Shown here: positions 11,572 through 31,036 of the stretch, piece after piece
Numbering within the stretch: the first letter of the stretch is position 1
How the letters are laid out: the number at the start of each line of letters is the position of its first letter
Source of the DNA: Candidatus Acididesulfobacter guangdongensis
Lineage (GTDB): Bacteria; SZUA-79; Acidulodesulfobacterales; Acidulodesulfobacteraceae
Reading direction: 5' to 3'
DNA: 64,000 nt
Assembly: GCA_004195045.1 (NCBI GenBank)
Contig: SGBC01000002.1
Span: 1 to 64,000, forward strand
Notes under the pieces: generated by a model
The model's input: only the letters and a program-made list of their open reading frames with translations
Databases searched by the model: none
What the model was told of the DNA's origin: nothing
Made by a program: the position numbers and the translations under genes

Positions 11572-12000
11572 ATGGCTACCTGTAATAGTTTTTATTATAT
11601 AGATATAGTTAAAATACCCATTGATGTAAATATAGCTCTGAATTTTGTGAATGATGCAGCATCCGGTTCAACACTTTTGTTTAATGGAACGGTTAGAGAT
11701 AATGAGGACGGGACGCCCGTTAAATTTCTTTACTATGAAGCATATGAAGAAATGGCGTTCAAAGAAATAGATAAACTTATAAGCGCCGCTTTCGAAAAAT
11801 ATGATTTAAATAAGATTGCTGTTATTCATAGAACAGGAAAGATAGAAATAGGCGGAATTTCAATTTCAATTGCAGTTTCCAGCCCGCACAGAGATTCTTC
11901 TTATATAGCTTCAAAATTTTTAATAGACAATATAAAAGAAACAGTGCCTATATGGAAAAAAGAATCCTTCGGCGAATATGAAAAATGGAAAAGGATTTAA
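11572..12000 (+). CDS. moaE: Molybdopterin synthase large subunit MoaE
   Basis: MoaE binds precursor Z (cPMP) and, with thiocarboxylated MoaD, forms the molybdopterin dithiolene. The 142-residue protein has the family motifs FNGTVRDNEDG (38-48), YYEAYEEMA (54-62), VIHRTGKIEIGG (84-95), VSSPHRDSSY (102-111) and the catalytic lysine region KETVPIWKKESF (122-133). It is followed after two bases by the large activator gene, so they are probably co-transcribed. Confidence 0.93.
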   Translation: MATCNSFYYIDIVKIPIDVNIALNFVNDAASGSTLLFNGTVRDNEDGTPVKFLYYEAYEEMAFKEIDKLISAAFEKYDLNKIAVIHRTGKIEIGGISISIAVSSPHRDSSYIASKFLIDNIKETVPIWKKESFGEYEKWKRI

Positions 12001-12002
12001 CT

Positions 12003-14996
12003 ATGAATAAATTGGATAAATTTTTTTTAGGTATAGATATAGGTTCAACGACCGTTAAAACTGCGATATTAGATGAAAAATTAAATGTAGTTGCCAAAAC
12101 ATATACAAGGTCAAACGGAGAATCTCTTAAAACAGCCTACAATGTATTAGAAAATACTTTTAGTAAATTTCCGGCTGAAAATTTTTATTCAATGGGGGTT
12201 ACAGGCTCCGGTTCTAAAACTCTCGGCGATATATTAAACATACCTAATATAAACGAACTCGTTGCCCAGACAGAAGCTGTTAAATATTTTTATCCGGAGG
12301 TAAAAACAGTAATTGAAATGGGCGGGCAGGATTCAAAATTTATATTATTAAATAAAAATGAAAAAACCGGCGATATCTACTTAGATGATTTCGGATTAAA
12401 TGATTTATGCGCCGCCGGTACAGGCTCATTCTTAGATCAGCAGGCGGATAGGCTTAATATTGACATAGAAAAAGATTTTGGCAGATTAGCCGCTTCATCC
12501 GAAAATCCTGCAAAAATAGCCGGCAGATGCACAGTATTTGCTAAATCCGACATGATTCATCTGCAGCAAATTTCCACTCCTATACAGGATATAGTCGCGG
12601 GTTTGTGCTATGCCGTGGCACGGAATTTTATAGGTGTTGTCGCTAAAGGCAAAAAAATAAAAAAACCGGTAATTTTTCAAGGGGGAGTTGCATATAATAA
12701 AGGTATGATACGTGCGTTTGAAGACGTATTGGGTTTAAAGAGCGGAGAATTGATTATACCGGAGCATCATACCGTAATGGCAGCAATCGGAATTGCCCTA
12801 ATATCAAAAAACGAAGTCGAAAAAAACGGTAATAGTTGTTTTAAATTTGACGGATTGGATAAGTTAGAAAAATTTTTAGACGAGAGCAGATTGACCGGAA
12901 AATCTCACCCTAATCTTAATAAACCGCCGGCGGAAGAAGAATCTGATTTTAATTTTGACCAGAACAAAAATCTGAGCAAATATGCCGGACTGACAGTTCC
13001 TGTCTATATTGGCGTAGATACTGGCTCCGTCTCTACTAATATAGTATTATTGGATGACAGCAAAGAGCTTGTGATTAAAAAATATAAAAAAACGAACGGC
13101 GAGCCTATTAAAGTTGTAATGGAAACATTATTTGAAATTTATTGCGAGCTTACTGATTGCCATATAATTCCTGAAGTCAAAGGAGTATGCACAACCGGCT
13201 CAGGAAGATATCTGATTGCCGATTTTATAGGTGCCGATGTCGTTAAAAATGAGATAACTGCCCAGGCGGAAGCATCGGTGTTTATAGATGATAAAGTGGA
13301 TACAGTTTTTGAAATAGGCGGACAGGATTCAAAATACATAAGAATTAATAACGGCGTAGTAATAGATTTTGAAATGAATAAGGCATGCGCCGCAGGAACA
13401 GGTTCTTTTCTTGAGGAACAGGCTGATAAATTGCATATTGATATAATAAAAGAATTTTCTGAATCGGCGTTTAGAGCCGAAAATCCATGCAGTCTTGGAG
13501 AAAGATGCACGGTTTTTATGGAGTCGGATCTTGTATCGCATCAGCAGAAAGGAGCTTCAAAGGACCAGCTTCTGGCAGGACTAAGCTACTCTATAGTTGA
13601 AAACTACTTAAATAAGGTAGTGCTGGGGAAGCAGGTAGGAGAACATATTCTCTTTCAAGGCGGGGTTGCATTGAACAAGGCGGTAGTCAGCGCTTTTGAA
13701 ACTTTGTTAAATAAAAAGATTATAGTGCCTGAGCACAATGAAGTGACAGGAGCTATAGGGAGTGCATTGCTATCTTACAGAACGGAGGGAAAATCAAAAT
13801 TTGTAGGATTTGATTTAAGAAACAGAAAATATGAACAGGAATCTTTTGAATGCAAAAAATGTTCAAATCTATGCGAGGTTAATAAAGTTTCCGTGGAGAA
13901 AGAACCGCCGCATTATTACGGGGCAAGATGCGATATATTTGAGATAGAAAAAAATAAGATTAAAAAAGGCAAAAATTTTTTTATTGATAGAAAAAATTTA
14001 TTATTTGAAAAATATGATAAGGAGAAAAACGAAAATGATTTCTCTAAACCGCGCATAGGCATACCTTTATGCTTGGAAACATATGACCTGTTTCCGCTTT
14101 ATAACAGCTTATTTACAGAACTCGGTTTTACGGTAATACTATCCGATGAAACAACTAAATCTATAATAAGCAGTTCAAATATGCTGTCTATAACAGATAC
14201 ATGTCTTCCGGTTAAAGTACTTCTGGGCCATTCAAAAAATCTTATAGATAAGAAGGTGGACGCGATATTTCTGCCTGCACTGATAAATAGAGAAAAAAAT
14301 CATAAACTCCAAACGAACACCTCGCAGTGCCCGTATATACAGGGTGTTCCTTTTTCCACTAAATCGCTTGTCGATTTCGGCGGCATGTATCTTATCACGC
14401 CGGAATTTAGATTAAATAATGATAAACAGGATATAGACATAACTATTCGCAGCCTAACACATTATTTAAAAAAGTTTAAAGTTTCAAGGAAAAGAATTGT
14501 TAAGGCATTAGATAACGCATTATCTAAACAGATTGATTTTTTTAATGCACTTAAAAATAAAGGCAGGGAGATTCTTGAGAAATACGATGATATAACCGTT
14601 CTTATAGGCAGACCTTATAATGCCGGAGATGACGGAATTAATCTTGCAATTCCCGATAAAATTGCATCGTTAGGCATGACCGTCATGCCAATGGATTTTC
14701 TTGATTATAATGAAGTGTCTATATTTTCAGAACACGACAATATGTTCTGGCATGCCGGGCATAAAATATTGTCGTCAGCGAAAATAATAAAAGACAATCC
14801 TAAACTGAATGCGGTATATTTAACCAGCTACAGCTGCGGGCCAGACTCGTTTATCAAAACTTTTTTTGCTGATTATATGAAACATAAACCTTATTTAGAA
14901 ATTGAAATAGATGAACACAATGCAGACGCGGGGTATGTTACCAGACTTGAAGCTTTTTACGACAGCTTAAACAAAAACAATAAATGTTTTGTGTAA
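12003..14996 (+). CDS. Double-headed 2-hydroxyacyl-CoA dehydratase activator (BadF/HgdC type) fused to a DUF2229-like domain
   Basis: HgdC-type ATPases use ATP to push an electron from a [4Fe-4S] cluster to very low potential. This 997-residue protein holds two such ASKHA domains: the first starts GIDIGSTTVKTA and has cluster cysteines C136 and C176; the second starts GVDTGSVSTNIVLL with C462 and C502. The 40-residue spacing matches HgdC. A small cysteine group (CKKCSNLC, near 616-623) links to a DUF2229/HgdB-like region containing DTCLPVKVLLGH and YSCGPDSF. The fused family is widespread in anaerobes but its substrate is unknown. I choose the ATG at 12003, which has an AAGGA, over one 18 bases earlier inside moaE. 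The stop codon lies in a repeat element. Confidence 0.88.
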   Translation: MNKLDKFFLGIDIGSTTVKTAILDEKLNVVAKTYTRSNGESLKTAYNVLENTFSKFPAENFYSMGVTGSGSKTLGDILNIPNINELVAQTEAVKYFYPEVKTVIEMGGQDSKFILLNKNEKTGDIYLDDFGLNDLCAAGTGSFLDQQADRLNIDIEKDFGRLAASSENPAKIAGRCTVFAKSDMIHLQQISTPIQDIVAGLCYAVARNFIGVVAKGKKIKKPVIFQGGVAYNKGMIRAFEDVLGLKSGELIIPEHHTVMAAIGIALISKNEVEKNGNSCFKFDGLDKLEKFLDESRLTGKSHPNLNKPPAEEESDFNFDQNKNLSKYAGLTVPVYIGVDTGSVSTNIVLLDDSKELVIKKYKKTNGEPIKVVMETLFEIYCELTDCHIIPEVKGVCTTGSGRYLIADFIGADVVKNEITAQAEASVFIDDKVDTVFEIGGQDSKYIRINNGVVIDFEMNKACAAGTGSFLEEQADKLHIDIIKEFSESAFRAENPCSLGERCTVFMESDLVSHQQKGASKDQLLAGLSYSIVENYLNKVVLGKQVGEHILFQGGVALNKAVVSAFETLLNKKIIVPEHNEVTGAIGSALLSYRTEGKSKFVGFDLRNRKYEQESFECKKCSNLCEVNKVSVEKEPPHYYGARCDIFEIEKNKIKKGKNFFIDRKNLLFEKYDKEKNENDFSKPRIGIPLCLETYDLFPLYNSLFTELGFTVILSDETTKSIISSSNMLSITDTCLPVKVLLGHSKNLIDKKVDAIFLPALINREKNHKLQTNTSQCPYIQGVPFSTKSLVDFGGMYLITPEFRLNNDKQDIDITIRSLTHYLKKFKVSRKRIVKALDNALSKQIDFFNALKNKGREILEKYDDITVLIGRPYNAGDDGINLAIPDKIASLGMTVMPMDFLDYNEVSIFSEHDNMFWHAGHKILSSAKIIKDNPKLNAVYLTSYSCGPDSFIKTFFADYMKHKPYLEIEIDEHNADAGYVTRLEAFYDSLNKNNKCFV

Positions 14997-15822: not shown

Positions 15823-16413
15823 TTAAGAATTAGCAAAATCGTAACCTGCGATTAAAGTGTTTATGTAATTCTTTTTTTCAGCATCGTTTTTAGCCATAGA
15901 AGCTAAAACAGACGTAATATTATTTAAATCAATTATCCCTGATTTAGCAGATAATGCTCCCAGCAAAGAAATGTTGGGGCTTACTTTATTTTTACCCATT
16001 AGATCAGTATTTGCTATTTTTTCTACCGGAATTTTAAGCAGATTAGCTGTTTTTTGTTTTATATTCTTGTCAACATTATCATTGTCTGAAAGAAAATAAT
16101 TGCATATATTAAATTTAGAATAATTGACTAACACTATTGTGCTGCTGTCAAAAAATTCTAAATAGTTCATTGCAGACTGATAATCTAGACTGACTAATGC
16201 GTTTATATTTTTTGCGCATACGGCAGAACGTACACTGCCAATTTTTATCAGGCTGGAAGAAAAATTGTAATTAGAAATATTTGACAACGATTTAATTGCG
16301 ATTGATGTATTATAATTTTCATTTAATAATGATAAATATAATATCTGACTTAAAAATTTTATCTCTTCGATGTCAGCTCCGTTAATAACAAAATTAAAAT
16401 TTATATTTTCCAT
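15823..16413 (-). CDS. Degenerate indolepyruvate ferredoxin oxidoreductase beta subunit-like protein (IorB)
   Basis: IorB carries the gamma-type domain of indolepyruvate:ferredoxin oxidoreductase. This 196-residue protein keeps the general layout: a starting strand NFVINGA, a strand LIKIGSVRSAVCAKNINALVSLD corresponding to the usual RIG...ADLLLGLE region, and STIVLVNY. The hallmark GxGGQG is replaced by NGADIE and the HGMAQRGG segment by SLSNISNYN. It is very Asn/Ile/Ser-rich. The frame is intact with an AAAGGA ribosome site. It sits next to an equally eroded iorA, so both probably still form a complex, but catalysis looks unlikely. Confidence 0.65.
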   Translation of the reverse strand: MENINFNFVINGADIEEIKFLSQILYLSLLNENYNTSIAIKSLSNISNYNFSSSLIKIGSVRSAVCAKNINALVSLDYQSAMNYLEFFDSSTIVLVNYSKFNICNYFLSDNDNVDKNIKQKTANLLKIPVEKIANTDLMGKNKVSPNISLLGALSAKSGIIDLNNITSVLASMAKNDAEKKNYINTLIAGYDFANS

Positions 16414-16433
16414 CTATTTTACATATCCTTTTT

Positions 16434-16484
16434 AAAATAAATTTAAGTTTAAAATAAATTTAAGTTTAAAATAAATTTAAGTTT
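16434..16484. repeat. Three exact 17-bp tandem repeats between iorA and iorB
   Basis: AAAATAAATTTAAGTTT occurs three times head to tail, with a decayed fourth copy to about 16501. It lies in the 126-bp gap upstream of iorB and downstream of iorA, and could affect their relative expression or simply be slippage in AT-rich DNA. Confidence 0.85.
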
Positions 16485-16539
16485 AAAACAAATTTTATTT
16501 ATAATTTAATTTCATAATGTTTTGCGATTATAAGTAAGA

Positions 16540-18324
16540 CTAAGTAATTTTATTTTTTTTAAATTTTTTTAGATTAATTTTATTTTCTATGCTATCCTCA
16601 ATTTTTACTTTTTTTCTTTTATACATTTTTATAGCGTTATGAGGACAAATTGCAATACATAATTTACAATGCGTGCATATAACAGGATCAATAACAAAAT
16701 TATTTGTTTCCTCTATTTTAATAGCAGGACAGCCGCTAGTTTGAAAGCATAGTTTGCATTCAAATTTTAAACAAATATCGTTATTGATTTTTAAATATTT
16801 ATAAAAATTATAATTCTTCGTTCCGTTAGATTTTTTTAGGCAACTGTCTTCAATAAAAATAAGGTTAGCTTTATATTTTATTTTAAAATCATGAAGAGTT
16901 AAGTTATTTCTTAATATTTCCGATTTTATGTTTTTTAGCTGCGGTAAATCATAATTAATTTTTATAGAATTATTGCTATAATCGAAAATTGAATCATAAA
17001 CAACAAAATAAATTGTTTCTTTAGGGGCGAGGTTGTTTATCTTATCAATAATTAAGTTAATATTATTTAAGAAATTAGAATAAGATATAATTAGGTAAAT
17101 TTTTTTGTTTAAATTTTTAGTATCCAGGTTTGAAATAAAATAAACAGGCTCTTTTATCAAAAATAAATCAGGAAATGAAAATTTTAAAGGACTTGACGAT
17201 ATAAGCGAAAAGCAATTTGTATCTCCTACTAAGATGGTATCTTTATTTTCAATTTTATTTATTTTCAGTAAAAAGGCAAAAAGGTTGCATCCTATACAGA
17301 AAGAGGGACTGGCATGAACATCTGCCGGAGTAAAATTTTCCAGATAAAAACAGCCAGAATTTTCATTGGCAGAATTATTTATTAAAGTTAATTTATTAAA
17401 TTTAATTTTATTATTACTCTTAAAAAAAGAATATAGCGGTTTTGATAATAGGTTGTAACTGTCATAAATGATAATCTGTTTAAATAATTTTTCCGGAATA
17501 TTATCAAATATGTTTTTAAGTTTTTCTATGTCTAACGGATTTAATAATTTAAAATAAATTATATTATCTTCGCTAAACTTTTCTATTATCTCCGGAAAAG
17601 CCTTAGAGTCGCATAAAATTAAATTATCAGAGTTTTCATTCAGCATAAATTCAATAGAATTATTGTAATTTCTAAAACCTTCATAATTAGCCGGCAAAAT
17701 AAATTGATTTTTATCGGATTCTGAATTGTCGGCTGCCTTAAGAACAGTTTTTGCTTCAGTCCTTTCCGCAAATTTATTGTTGTCGCATATTTTATATTCA
17801 GACAATATAGAATTATTAAGATAAATTATCACGGGAAGTTTTAACTTTTCAGACAGCTGAAATTTAGAAGGGATTAAATCAATAAATTCATCTAATTTAG
17901 AATAATTAAAAATAGGAAATTTTTTTTCAATTTCGGTGGAAAAATTATTATAGCTGTTTCTATTAAGAAGACATATTACTATGCCGCCATAAAATTGATT
18001 TGGTTTTAAAAAAATGTCTTCAAGCTGAGAAAAACTAAAAAAAGAACCGGCATTGCAGACAATAAAACTTCTCTGTCTGGCAATGCTTAAGGCGAATACG
18101 CTGAACCATAGCAAATTAATATTCGAGTATTTTTTAACCCCAGAAAAATCTAAAGATAGATCTAATAATATCTCAGGCAATAAATAATTAATATCCTCAT
18201 CATAAAAAAGATTATTTACGCCATTACCCTTAGCTCTTTGAAAAATTATTTCAATGCCGGGAATTATTTTTTTTTCAAATTTGTTCAAAAGAGCATTTTT
18301 ATTATTTTTATTAAATAATTGCAT
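16540..18324 (-). CDS. Degenerate indolepyruvate ferredoxin oxidoreductase alpha subunit-like protein (IorA)
   Basis: IorA binds thiamine diphosphate (TPP) and Fe-S clusters and oxidises aryl-pyruvates to aryl-acetyl-CoA with ferredoxin. This 594-residue protein has IorA length and order: an N-terminal transketolase-like half, a SFCIGC motif (341-346), a GDTNCFSL remnant (367-374), and a C-terminal ferredoxin domain (about 518-562). The TPP/Mg motif expected as GDSTFFHSG is instead YLIISYSNF (410-418), and the NEKVA and GMNVA segments of the N-half are gone. The second cluster set C550-x2-C553-x2-C556-x3-C560-P is intact; the first has lost its usual spacing. The frame is uninterrupted, so it is kept but probably not a normal oxidoreductase. 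Confidence 0.7.
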   Translation of the reverse strand: MQLFNKNNKNALLNKFEKKIIPGIEIIFQRAKGNGVNNLFYDEDINYLLPEILLDLSLDFSGVKKYSNINLLWFSVFALSIARQRSFIVCNAGSFFSFSQLEDIFLKPNQFYGGIVICLLNRNSYNNFSTEIEKKFPIFNYSKLDEFIDLIPSKFQLSEKLKLPVIIYLNNSILSEYKICDNNKFAERTEAKTVLKAADNSESDKNQFILPANYEGFRNYNNSIEFMLNENSDNLILCDSKAFPEIIEKFSEDNIIYFKLLNPLDIEKLKNIFDNIPEKLFKQIIIYDSYNLLSKPLYSFFKSNNKIKFNKLTLINNSANENSGCFYLENFTPADVHASPSFCIGCNLFAFLLKINKIENKDTILVGDTNCFSLISSSPLKFSFPDLFLIKEPVYFISNLDTKNLNKKIYLIISYSNFLNNINLIIDKINNLAPKETIYFVVYDSIFDYSNNSIKINYDLPQLKNIKSEILRNNLTLHDFKIKYKANLIFIEDSCLKKSNGTKNYNFYKYLKINNDICLKFECKLCFQTSGCPAIKIEETNNFVIDPVICTHCKLCIAICPHNAIKMYKRKKVKIEDSIENKINLKKFKKNKIT

Positions 18325-27459: not shown

Positions 27460-28371
27460 ATGTATGATTTAATAATTATCGGAGGCGGACCTGCCGGCTT
27501 GTCGGCAGCTATTTATGCCTTAAGAGCCCGTATGAATATAATATTAATAGAAAAAATGGCAGTCGGCGGTCAAATAGCATTATCTGATAATATAGAAAAT
27601 TATCCAGGTTTTCCGTCGCTTTCAGGCTATGAACTTATGACTAAGTTCGAAGAACATGCAAAAGGATTGGGCTTGACAATAGTATATGACGAAATAAAAG
27701 AAATAACGGATAATGTTGATTACAAAACATTAAAAGGCGCCGAAAACAATTACGAGACAAGAAGCATTATAGTCGCAGTCGGAGCTTCACCAAAAAGATT
27801 GGGGATTCCGGGCGAACTTGAATATACAGGCAAGGGAGTTTCTTACTGCGCAACATGCGATGGTCCGTTTTTCAGAGACCAGGACATTGCCGTTATAGGC
27901 GGCGGAGATACGGCAGTAAAAGAAGCGCATTATCTTTCTAAACTTGTAAAATCCGTTGTCTTAATACACAGACGAAAAGAACTCAGAGCGGAAAAAATAA
28001 TTCAGGAAAGATTGAATCATGCCAATAACGTTTCGCTTAAGTTAGAGCATATACCAATTTCTATTAACGGGGATAAAGGGGTGGAGTCTATAACTATAGA
28101 AAATGTTAAGACGAAAGAAAGAAATACTATTCCGGTAAAAGGCGTTTTTATATTTGTCGGAATAAAACCGCAGACTTCTTTTTTACATAATGTTGACAAG
28201 GATGAACTTGGTTTTATTAAAGCAGACCCTTATACTTTAATGACTTCTATGCCCGGAGTTTTTTGCGCAGGAGATTCTCATTCCAAAAAACTTCTCCAAG
28301 TGGCGACTGCTGTCGGAGAAGGCGCTTTAGCGGCAACCTCTGCGGAAGAATTTGTTTGCGATATTTGTTGA
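27460..28371 (+). CDS. trxB: Thioredoxin reductase
   Basis: TrxB passes electrons from NADPH through FAD to thioredoxin. The 303-residue enzyme has the FAD motif GGGPAGLSAA, the redox-active C130-A-T-C133, the second Rossmann motif GGGDTAVKEA, the NADPH-phosphate contacts HRRKELRAE, and the C-terminal FAD motif GVFCAGDS. Because HRR...R is conserved, NADPH rather than ferredoxin dependence is expected. AAGGAGG lies upstream. It stands alone with long gaps on either side, and would serve the TlpA/thioredoxin systems of the cell. Confidence 0.95.
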   Translation: MYDLIIIGGGPAGLSAAIYALRARMNIILIEKMAVGGQIALSDNIENYPGFPSLSGYELMTKFEEHAKGLGLTIVYDEIKEITDNVDYKTLKGAENNYETRSIIVAVGASPKRLGIPGELEYTGKGVSYCATCDGPFFRDQDIAVIGGGDTAVKEAHYLSKLVKSVVLIHRRKELRAEKIIQERLNHANNVSLKLEHIPISINGDKGVESITIENVKTKERNTIPVKGVFIFVGIKPQTSFLHNVDKDELGFIKADPYTLMTSMPGVFCAGDSHSKKLLQVATAVGEGALAATSAEEFVCDIC

Positions 28372-28753: not shown

Positions 28754-29692
28754 ATGGAAGATAAAGATAAAGATAAAGATAAAAAAGAAACAGAAAATAT
28801 CAATTATGATCCTTCGCAGGATATGGTTTTGACAAGGCATGGTTTTGTCAAGGGCAAAGAAAAATCATTTCTGCAAAATCCGAAAGACAAACCGTTTATC
28901 GGAATTATCGGAATTCCTCCAAAAGCTGTTATGGAAGACCTTGTTAAAAGGAATGCAATCATCTTGTCTTTAGATATGTATAAAGTCGACCAATTAATTA
29001 CAGAACCTACCGAAAATATTCTTCCTAAAGCGTATTGCGCCCAAATTAAACGTATTATAGCCAATATTTTAGCTGCGACGGATTACTGGACTGAAGATGT
29101 CGTCGATTCCGTTCTTGTAGGAAGAAATCCTATATCAGAGATAATAATTGAAGATTCAGAAATATCTAGATGTAATGAAATGGGATTTGTTGCGGATTTT
29201 ATTGAAAATGAATTGAAAATAAAATTGACCCGCGTTAAAAATAACGACTTAGAAAGAAAAGGCGATTTTATTTGCAAAAGCGGTATTCCTCTAGATGATA
29301 AATTCGGACAAATTGCAGGTTATTTTTATAGAGATATTGAAAAGAAAAAACCGTTCAGACCCGAATATGTCAAGCCTAAATGCGCATTTTGGGGAACGCC
29401 TCCGTGGGGAGATTTTTCATTAGCAAGCTATTTTCCGGACGAAACACATATTTACGGCTGGACGAGGTGTGTTGAAAATTTAACGCCGGGCGATTTGAAA
29501 CTTGAGTTGGAATTTGACCCTGACGTGCCTACTGTTTTTTTCGCTCAAAGTTTTTGTCCAAAAGCAGGACTGGCTTCCTATCTTGCAAGCAAACATCCCA
29601 GGGGTATTTTCATAGATATGGATTTGGGGCTTACGCGAAGCACAGTGGCGAAACTTACCGCATTTTTGCAGCTTAACGGGGTTGTCGTTTAA
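28754..29692 (+). CDS. Uncharacterised six-cysteine protein paired with an HgdC-like activator
   Basis: I do not recognise this 312-residue soluble protein. It starts with a repeated Asp-Lys tail encoded by four GATAAA hexamers, has an N-terminal region with FIGIIGIPPKAVMEDL (48-63), and six cysteines: C95, C140, C174, C210 in KCAFWGTPPWGD, C239 in WTRC, and C268 in SFCPKAG. These, with the conserved-looking Trp/Pro/Gly stretch, suggest a metal or Fe-S site. The gene 87 bp downstream encodes an ASKHA ATPase of the type that activates 2-hydroxyacyl-CoA dehydratases by ATP-driven electron transfer, so this protein may be its electron acceptor. That is inference from adjacency only. Confidence 0.75.
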   Translation: MEDKDKDKDKKETENINYDPSQDMVLTRHGFVKGKEKSFLQNPKDKPFIGIIGIPPKAVMEDLVKRNAIILSLDMYKVDQLITEPTENILPKAYCAQIKRIIANILAATDYWTEDVVDSVLVGRNPISEIIIEDSEISRCNEMGFVADFIENELKIKLTRVKNNDLERKGDFICKSGIPLDDKFGQIAGYFYRDIEKKKPFRPEYVKPKCAFWGTPPWGDFSLASYFPDETHIYGWTRCVENLTPGDLKLELEFDPDVPTVFFAQSFCPKAGLASYLASKHPRGIFIDMDLGLTRSTVAKLTAFLQLNGVVV

Positions 29693-29779
29693 ATAAAAAA
29701 AAATAACTGAATCGCGTATTTTTGAAATATCAGGATTGTTAACAGAGATTAAATTAAAAAATCGGGCGGAAATATTAAC

Positions 29780-30442
29780 ATGATACTTTTAGATGCAGGA
29801 ACTACATACGCAAAAATATTAAATACCGAAACTAATGAAAAGACCGTCAAAAAAGTTGCAGATCTTGAAAAAACATTTAAGGCGGACATAGGGACTGGGC
29901 ACAATATAAGCAGATTTGCAAAACAGTCCGTAAACGAAATTATCGCGCTCTCTTACGCCGGCAAAAGATTAATAAAAGAAAAATCATTTACATTGTTAGA
30001 TGTCGGCTCAAGGGACGCAAAATATGTTATTTTTGAAAACGGTAATTTTATTCATAGCGATTGGAATACCGAATGCGGGGCGTTTACAGGACAGGCTATC
30101 GAGATTCTCGGAAGTTATTTAAATTTAAACTATAATGATATAGAACCTCAGAAAGAGTTTATTACTGCCACGTGCGGACTTTTAGGGATGGGGCACGTTT
30201 TTGATATGGTCGCTTCCAGCGTTGAGCCCGGAATTGCGGCGGCAAGATTAATAAAAGGCGTATGTATGTCAATGTACAGATTTGCTAGAAAACCAGATAA
30301 AATTTATTTGACCGGCGGTTTGGTAAATAATGCGCTTTTTGTAAGGTCTATGCCTGCGGAAACAATTTGTTTAGATAGATTTACATTGCTTGAAGGTGTT
30401 CTTGAATACGCTGCAAGCAAGAAAGATGGTATAAATTTATAG
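29780..30442 (+). CDS. Compact BadF/HgdC-type activator ATPase
   Basis: This 220-residue protein is a reduced ASKHA ATPase. The phosphate-1 motif is LLDAGTTYAKIL (3-14), phosphate-2 is LLDVGSRDAKYVIF (72-85), and the adenosine motif is YLTGGLVNNALF (176-187). C99 in TECGAFTGQA and C132 in TATCGLLGMG sit where the two cluster ligands of HgdC lie (spacing 33 rather than 41), so a homodimer could share one [4Fe-4S] cluster. It is about 40 residues shorter than HgdC. It is downstream of, and probably co-transcribed with, the six-cysteine protein. Its partner is expected to need low-potential electrons. Confidence 0.8.
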   Translation: MILLDAGTTYAKILNTETNEKTVKKVADLEKTFKADIGTGHNISRFAKQSVNEIIALSYAGKRLIKEKSFTLLDVGSRDAKYVIFENGNFIHSDWNTECGAFTGQAIEILGSYLNLNYNDIEPQKEFITATCGLLGMGHVFDMVASSVEPGIAAARLIKGVCMSMYRFARKPDKIYLTGGLVNNALFVRSMPAETICLDRFTLLEGVLEYAASKKDGINL

Positions 30443-30658: not shown

Positions 30659-31036
30659 TTAGTAAGCCAATACTTTTACGTCGTCATCCATAGCCATTTC
30701 GACGACATAAGCTCCGCCGACGACCCCGCTGCATTCAGGTATGAGGTCATCTTTCGTAAAATCGTTTAATTCTAAAGCAGGTGTGCATACTTTAAAAACA
30801 ACCCCGGCTTCGTAGGCATCTTTAATGAAATCATATACAGATTTAGGACTGCCTTCTTTTACCCTTAAATTTTCTGCTACGCCTTTTTTCATAAGAAGTC
30901 CTGCATCCGCAGTAAGTATCATTTCAACTTCATAATCCATAGTAGCAGCAGCTGCAGCTTGAAAAAACGGTGCGCCTAACTGGTGCGGATTTTCAGGTGT
31001 TGTGTTTTGAAGCATAATAAATAATTTGTTTGCCAT
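30659..31036 (-). CDS. DsrE-family protein
   Basis: DsrE-like proteins are small Rossmann-like subunits that often carry sulfur on a conserved cysteine. This 125-residue protein starts KLFIMLQNTTPENPHQLGAPFFQA, has an EMILTADAGLLMKKG strand-helix, and VCTPALELNDF with C84 at the position of the DsrE sulfur-accepting cysteine; C102 is extra. No DsrF/H or TusA gene is adjacent, so it is not part of a standard DsrEFH set. It is transcribed convergently with the activator module. Role unknown, probably sulfur transfer or redox sensing. Confidence 0.85.
   Translation of the reverse strand: MANKLFIMLQNTTPENPHQLGAPFFQAAAAATMDYEVEMILTADAGLLMKKGVAENLRVKEGSPKSVYDFIKDAYEAGVVFKVCTPALELNDFTKDDLIPECSGVVGGAYVVEMAMDDDVKVLAY

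Follow-up and report, generated by a model that had tools for sequence, protein, structure and literature searches.

Two adjoining genes of Candidatus Acididesulfobacter guangdongensis probably encode a minimal reductase of two components that would use ATP to pass low-potential electrons to a non-CoA acceptor, and from sequence comparisons and structural models we put the probability of this reading at roughly 0.75. The genes lie in the window, the 64,000-nucleotide stretch of contig SGBC01000002.1 analysed here, and encode a six-cysteine protein and a compact ATPase. Sequence and model make them a scaled-down version of a machine already known, itself built of two components. The features of the locus are as follows.

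27460–28371, thioredoxin-reductase-like gene (trxB), upstream of the six-cysteine gene
28754–29692, + strand, six-cysteine protein gene, an ORF of 312 residues; compact two-domain relative of HGD-D, BzdN and DCCP, predicted cluster-bearing reductase component
29036–29038, + strand, C95 codon; candidate proximal-cluster ligand, aligns with DCCP-type C65
29171–29173, + strand, C140 codon; candidate proximal-cluster ligand, aligns with DCCP-type C95
29273–29275, + strand, C174 codon; extra cysteine with no DCCP counterpart, present in 61 of 64 homologues
29381–29383, + strand, C210 codon; candidate distal ligand, region of DCCP-type C262
29468–29470, + strand, C239 codon; candidate distal ligand in RCxENxTP, region of DCCP-type C291
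29555–29557, + strand, C268 codon; candidate proximal-cluster ligand, aligns with DCCP-type C324
29780–30442, + strand, gene of the compact HgdC/DCCP-R-like ATPase (activase), 220 residues; family matches, fold matches and a separate 100/100 clade
30074–30076, + strand, ATPase C99 codon; candidate bridging [4Fe-4S] ligand, aligns with the cysteine of HgdC KCAAGTG
30173–30175, + strand, ATPase C132 codon; second candidate bridging [4Fe-4S] ligand, aligns with the cysteine of HgdC STC
30659–31036, − strand, DsrE-family ORF, convergent to the pair

The first-pass annotation had described a two-gene module with six cysteines and a CAFWGTPPWGD motif, and the ORFs are exactly as it claimed. They are 87 bases apart, the upstream product contains exactly six cysteines and the motif occupies its residues 210–220. 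An insertion of about 18 residues (111–128, between C95 and C140) is carried in the window's family and missing from the distant homologues, and it is of low confidence in the AlphaFold model. Promoter and terminator scans gave nothing above shuffles.

The downstream product was correctly called a compact HgdC-like ATPase. It matches TIGR00241 (E 4e-11) and PF01869 (E 9e-5), in both cases below the cut-off (the gathering one for PF01869), and among PDB sequences 4eht and 1hux with E of about 1e-7. Its model has a pLDDT of 92.5, and activases of the HgdC/DCCP-R kind make up all of the top ten fold matches (4eht/4ehu, 9gai/9gba, 7yyl and 1hux). C99 and C132 are invariant in 63 sequences and throughout the alignments A4 and A6, and the nucleotide motifs of these activases are kept, while its length is 220 residues versus 243–276 for the PDB activases. 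A 100/100 branch parts 19 compact ATPases from 15 other activase domains, which include both domains of a large window protein at 11985–14996. By sequence and model, then, it is a small HgdC/DCCP-R activase homologue.

The six-cysteine protein is more remote from anything described. On its own it has no Pfam or NCBIfam match, and sequence-only PDB searches with a single sequence or a profile returned nothing credible; its kinship to PDB entries came out only by fold and profile–profile comparison. The AlphaFold model, built on a shallow alignment (Neff about 2.3), has two alpha/beta domains, a pLDDT of 77 and a disordered N-terminus of 42 residues. Its best fold match is the double-cubane protein 6eno (probability 1.00), along with 2-hydroxyisocaproyl-CoA dehydratase 3o3m_B (1.00) and the DCCP chains 7yzm/7yyl (0.94–0.98), at query TM values of 0.45–0.50. 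Among the 50 matches listed, those outside the HGD-D/DCCP family reach a probability of 0.41 at most.

Profile comparisons agree with the folds. Pfam HGD-D (PF06050) is matched by 14 of 64 homologues, with a best E of 9.2e-5 and scores of up to about 20 bits, below the gathering cut-off of 28.4 bits. Against a DCCP-type alignment assembled from other genomes, hhalign places the N-terminal half with an E of 1.8e-5 and the C-terminal half with one of 2e-5, the latter scoring 34.3 against a maximum of 19.0 over 60 column shuffles. The hhalign probability is a moderate 77–79%, so the case for kinship rests on the agreement of several methods.

Taken together, these comparisons identify the six-cysteine protein as a remote compact relative of the HGD-D, benzoyl-CoA reductase (BCR) and double-cubane components (BCR-I/HAD/DCCP). 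The first-pass annotation denied the neighbour both a dehydratase character and a known family; as regards ancestry this is wrong, for the fold, HGD-D and profile matches all point to dehydratase, BCR and double-cubane relatives. DCCP membership itself (NF040772) was considered and rejected: the window's genome has no NF040772 match, and the six-cysteine homologues stay short of its cut-off with a best E of 0.069.

The protein differs from its relatives by what it lacks. About 75 template residues between the two halves are unmatched in the alignment and replaced by one helix in the AlphaFold model, so by both measures the intermediate helical domain is absent; the distant homologues begin at the first strand. 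In BzdO, this domain and the N-terminal helix help to build the CoA channel (PMC11971306). Since both are missing here, the acceptor is probably not an acyl-CoA or other CoA ester.

The cysteines suggest a cluster. All six are invariant within the window's family and all six are kept in 58 of 64 diverse homologues, so the refutation named in the first-pass annotation, cysteines that are not conserved, does not hold. C95, C140 and C268 are invariant in the 64 homologues (A5) and in nine rows of a more distant set (A3), and each stands just ahead of a helix in the model; the DCCP-type numbering is that of L141. The cluster cysteines of BzdN likewise stand just before helices, and its [8Fe-9S] cluster is bound by Cys36/73/100/263/293/327 (PMC11971306).

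The other positions are looser. A cysteine at 206 or 210, in the loop of DCCP-type C262, is found in 61 of the 64, and C239, present in 64 of 64 in A5 and lost in L047, matches DCCP-type C291 exactly or to within two residues. Two homologues (L042 and L044) have no cysteine at 206 or 210, and L047 retains the proximal three only. A single site-differentiated [4Fe-4S] would therefore be the common denominator, and the predicted cluster is either of this type, one iron being open, or double-cubane-like in those members that, as here, have all six cysteines. From the cysteine pattern, a double cubane is possible in the six-cysteine members.

The pair is kept together and conserved well beyond chance. 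Within the window's 30-genome family, the six-cysteine protein is present in 16 genomes at 84–98% identity, and the ATPase (79–97% identical) follows it wherever the contig extends that far; a 17th genome (G024) has a partial ATPase at a contig edge. The dN/dS values within the genus are about 0.04 for the six-cysteine gene and 0.04–0.08 for the ATPase gene, so both genes are under strong purifying selection. In all family loci with the pair trxB lies upstream, and in all but two dsrE lies beyond.

Ten other genomes of the family have trxB followed directly by dsrE with the pair absent, and in the three remaining ones dsrE was not found or is at a contig end. These ten clean empty sites make the pair a discrete two-gene unit, with DsrE part of the locus and not of the unit. 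The DsrE ORF does lie just beyond and faces the pair as first annotated, but the partnership hinted at by its position fails on these sites, and for the same reason DsrE and TrxB were rejected as functional partners.

Outside the family the coupling persists. A profile search added six genomes, drawn from five further families, whose homologues are 37–41% identical and in each case adjoin an ATPase, and a GTDB contig scan found 424 relatives of the six-cysteine protein. Among these, 80 loci are readable, and in 80 of 80 the next gene downstream, with strand and order unchanged, encodes the ATPase; the two genes often overlap or are a few bases apart. The loci were picked by likeness to the six-cysteine protein alone, so the adjacency was not selected for. 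The conserved adjacency proposed as a check of the module is thereby confirmed, and the pair is strictly coupled across very different anaerobic bacteria.

Most of the 80 loci belong to Desulfobulbales, including cultured Desulfobulbus species, and one small phylum has the pair in 6 of 7 genomes; elsewhere it is sparse. The relatives were recovered in acid-mine-drainage metagenomes and in MAGs of deltaproteobacteria, and this would fit Candidatus Acidulodesulfobacterales (PMC6776010). The viral contigs searched contain no relative. A weak match in G281 was dropped as it fell within an ABC-transporter-like ORF.

No metabolic neighbour gene is conserved around the pair, and the conserved neighbours of the distant copies include no DsrE-type family. 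A link to dissimilatory sulfite reductase was rejected, as the pair occurs without dsrA in the window's genome and in several of its close relatives, and the empty-site genomes have dsrA. Most of the family has dsrA; the window's genome (G000) and four of the same genus (G001, G003–G005) do not. A nitrogenase link was dropped likewise, with nifH occurring both with and without the pair and present in G000.

Some neighbours recur within lineages. In Desulfobulbales (L062–L128, e.g. L070:4907–5986 and L104:280–1359), 56 loci have a gene for an LptF/LptG permease that ends just upstream of the six-cysteine gene, in most cases within 100 bases. MacB/FtsX-type permeases are found near the pair in two other lineages; they lie beside it in L117 and L045 and two genes downstream in L090. 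These permeases may reflect operon chance or point towards the cell envelope. In 13 loci the pair is followed by a DUF362 gene (e.g. L080:7618–8442, L095:8003–8842 and L104:2802–3620). At L042:5849–7193, a Vut_1 (YhhQ-like) transporter gene runs with its end into the six-cysteine gene, and this overlap suggests translational coupling in that lineage.

By homology, ATP-driven reductive activation, as first proposed, stays the most likely function. The ATPase dimer would hold a bridging [4Fe-4S] cluster, take an electron from ferredoxin or flavodoxin and dock on the six-cysteine partner. ATP hydrolysis would then send an electron of very low potential into the cluster buried in the partner, and the cluster so reduced would then reduce the bound acceptor. 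Neither a full-length HGD-D protein nor a DCCP was found in the window's genome, which leaves the adjacent six-cysteine protein as the obvious electron acceptor of the ATPase.

Besides the moderate hhalign and model scores and the want of a conserved metabolic neighbour, a point against the two-component reading is a second, large DUF2229-type activase in the same genome. This 1003-residue protein (11985–14996, + strand), 14 kb upstream of the pair, has two HgdC-type ATPase domains fused to DUF2229, and for it too the genome offers no full-length HGD-D. A similar DUF2229 activase (L046:2592–5732) lies 2 kb upstream of a compact pair. Also in the window, two adjacent ORFs (15823–18324, − strand) look, by eye, like a pair of the indolepyruvate ferredoxin oxidoreductase type; the larger one ends in a cysteine region resembling ferredoxin.

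What is reduced, and by what cluster, admits several readings. As a variant of the two-component reading, the six-cysteine protein may be a miniature DCCP that reduces small molecules at an [8Fe-9S] double cubane on C95/C140/C268, C210/C239 and C174. Five of the six DCCP ligand positions have matching or nearby cysteines, the sixth cysteine is 95% conserved, BzdN likewise has six (PMC11971306) and DCCP is the best fold match. However, ligand C27 is replaced by the invariant proline P56, C174 as a ligand lacks structural support and the homologues short of distal cysteines do not fit, so we hold this variant as a tentative possibility. A CoA-ester dehydratase or reductase in the manner of HAD or BCR, its CoA site being unusual, would suit the nearest characterised relatives of known function, which use CoA esters. 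With the CoA-channel parts missing, a single substrate component instead of two and no CoA-pathway genes seen nearby, such an enzyme is quite improbable.

The pair might instead serve repair or activation, in which case it would reduce not a metabolite but the metal cofactor or a radical site in some other enzyme. The variable neighbourhoods, the slow evolution and the near-universal presence in the small phylum would suit this, but no third protein is consistently linked to the pair, and a universal target would hardly be expected when close relatives cleanly lack the pair; on balance we consider this role unlikely. Sulfur transfer of a TudS-related, desulfidase-like kind, tied to the neighbouring DsrE and thioredoxin reductase, is suggested by the flanking genes in the window family, by the sulfur metabolism of the hosts and by the assignment of TudS to the same superfamily (PMC11971306). 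It is hardly credible, as 0 of 64 homologues match DUF523 even at an E of up to 1, the ten empty sites keep TrxB next to DsrE, neither of them is a conserved neighbour outside the window family, the pair does not track dsrA and the ATPase indicates electron activation. The two-component reductase for a non-CoA acceptor is the preferred reading.

Biology has few ways to reach very low redox potentials, and ATP-driven electron activation is one of them. Those superfamily members whose reductive function is defined use CoA esters, enzymatic Birch chemistry is said to have the activation of substrates without CoA as a goal, and the physiological role of DCCPs is stated as unknown (PMC11971306). 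A small, strictly paired system with a single substrate component in cultured Desulfobulbus would make both questions, CoA independence and the DCCP role, testable. Open-literature searches, with most subscription papers outside their scope, found no description of the pair or of compact family members. The fullest version of our reading is a hitherto unrecognised, widespread minimal two-domain BCR/double-cubane member with a rearranged six-cysteine [8Fe-9S]-type cluster and a dedicated mini-activase for ATP-driven non-CoA reduction in sulfur-metabolising and other anaerobes, a conjecture that we place on the doubtful side.

Compared with the known systems, the pair resembles DCCP/DCCP-R (6eno, 7yyl, 7yzm; NF040772) in the fold of both partners, the use of one substrate component and one activase, the proximal cysteine triad and at least two distal cysteine positions. 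It differs in that the compact reductase component spans about 245 residues versus about 370–420 in DCCP, is without the intermediate helical domain and has P56 in place of C27 and the new C174, so that the sixth ligand is absent or sits elsewhere, and in that the compact ATPase is smaller than DCCP-R and in its own clade. With HadBC/HgdAB and HadI/HgdC (3o3m, 4eht, 1hux; PF06050/PF01869) it shares the two-component ATP-driven logic, the activase fold and cluster cysteines, and the HGD-D motif region around C95/C140, whereas it has neither a two-subunit component nor a CoA-channel domain, and its Pfam scores stay under the gathering cut-offs.

Class I benzoyl-CoA reductase BzdNO/PQ (9gai) is of the same superfamily, and the six-cysteine pattern resembles that of its [8Fe-9S] subunit BzdN, but the pair is without the heterodimer and the CoA channel and no aromatic degradation genes were seen nearby. 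The desulfidase TudS (DUF523) is also a small member of the superfamily with one cluster (PMC11971306), yet it has one domain only and transfers sulfur, while the six-cysteine protein has no DUF523 match and a dedicated paired activase. The large fused DUF2229 activases share the ASKHA activase domains and are present in the same genome as the pair, but carry two such domains plus DUF2229 in about 1000 residues and form a separate tree branch.
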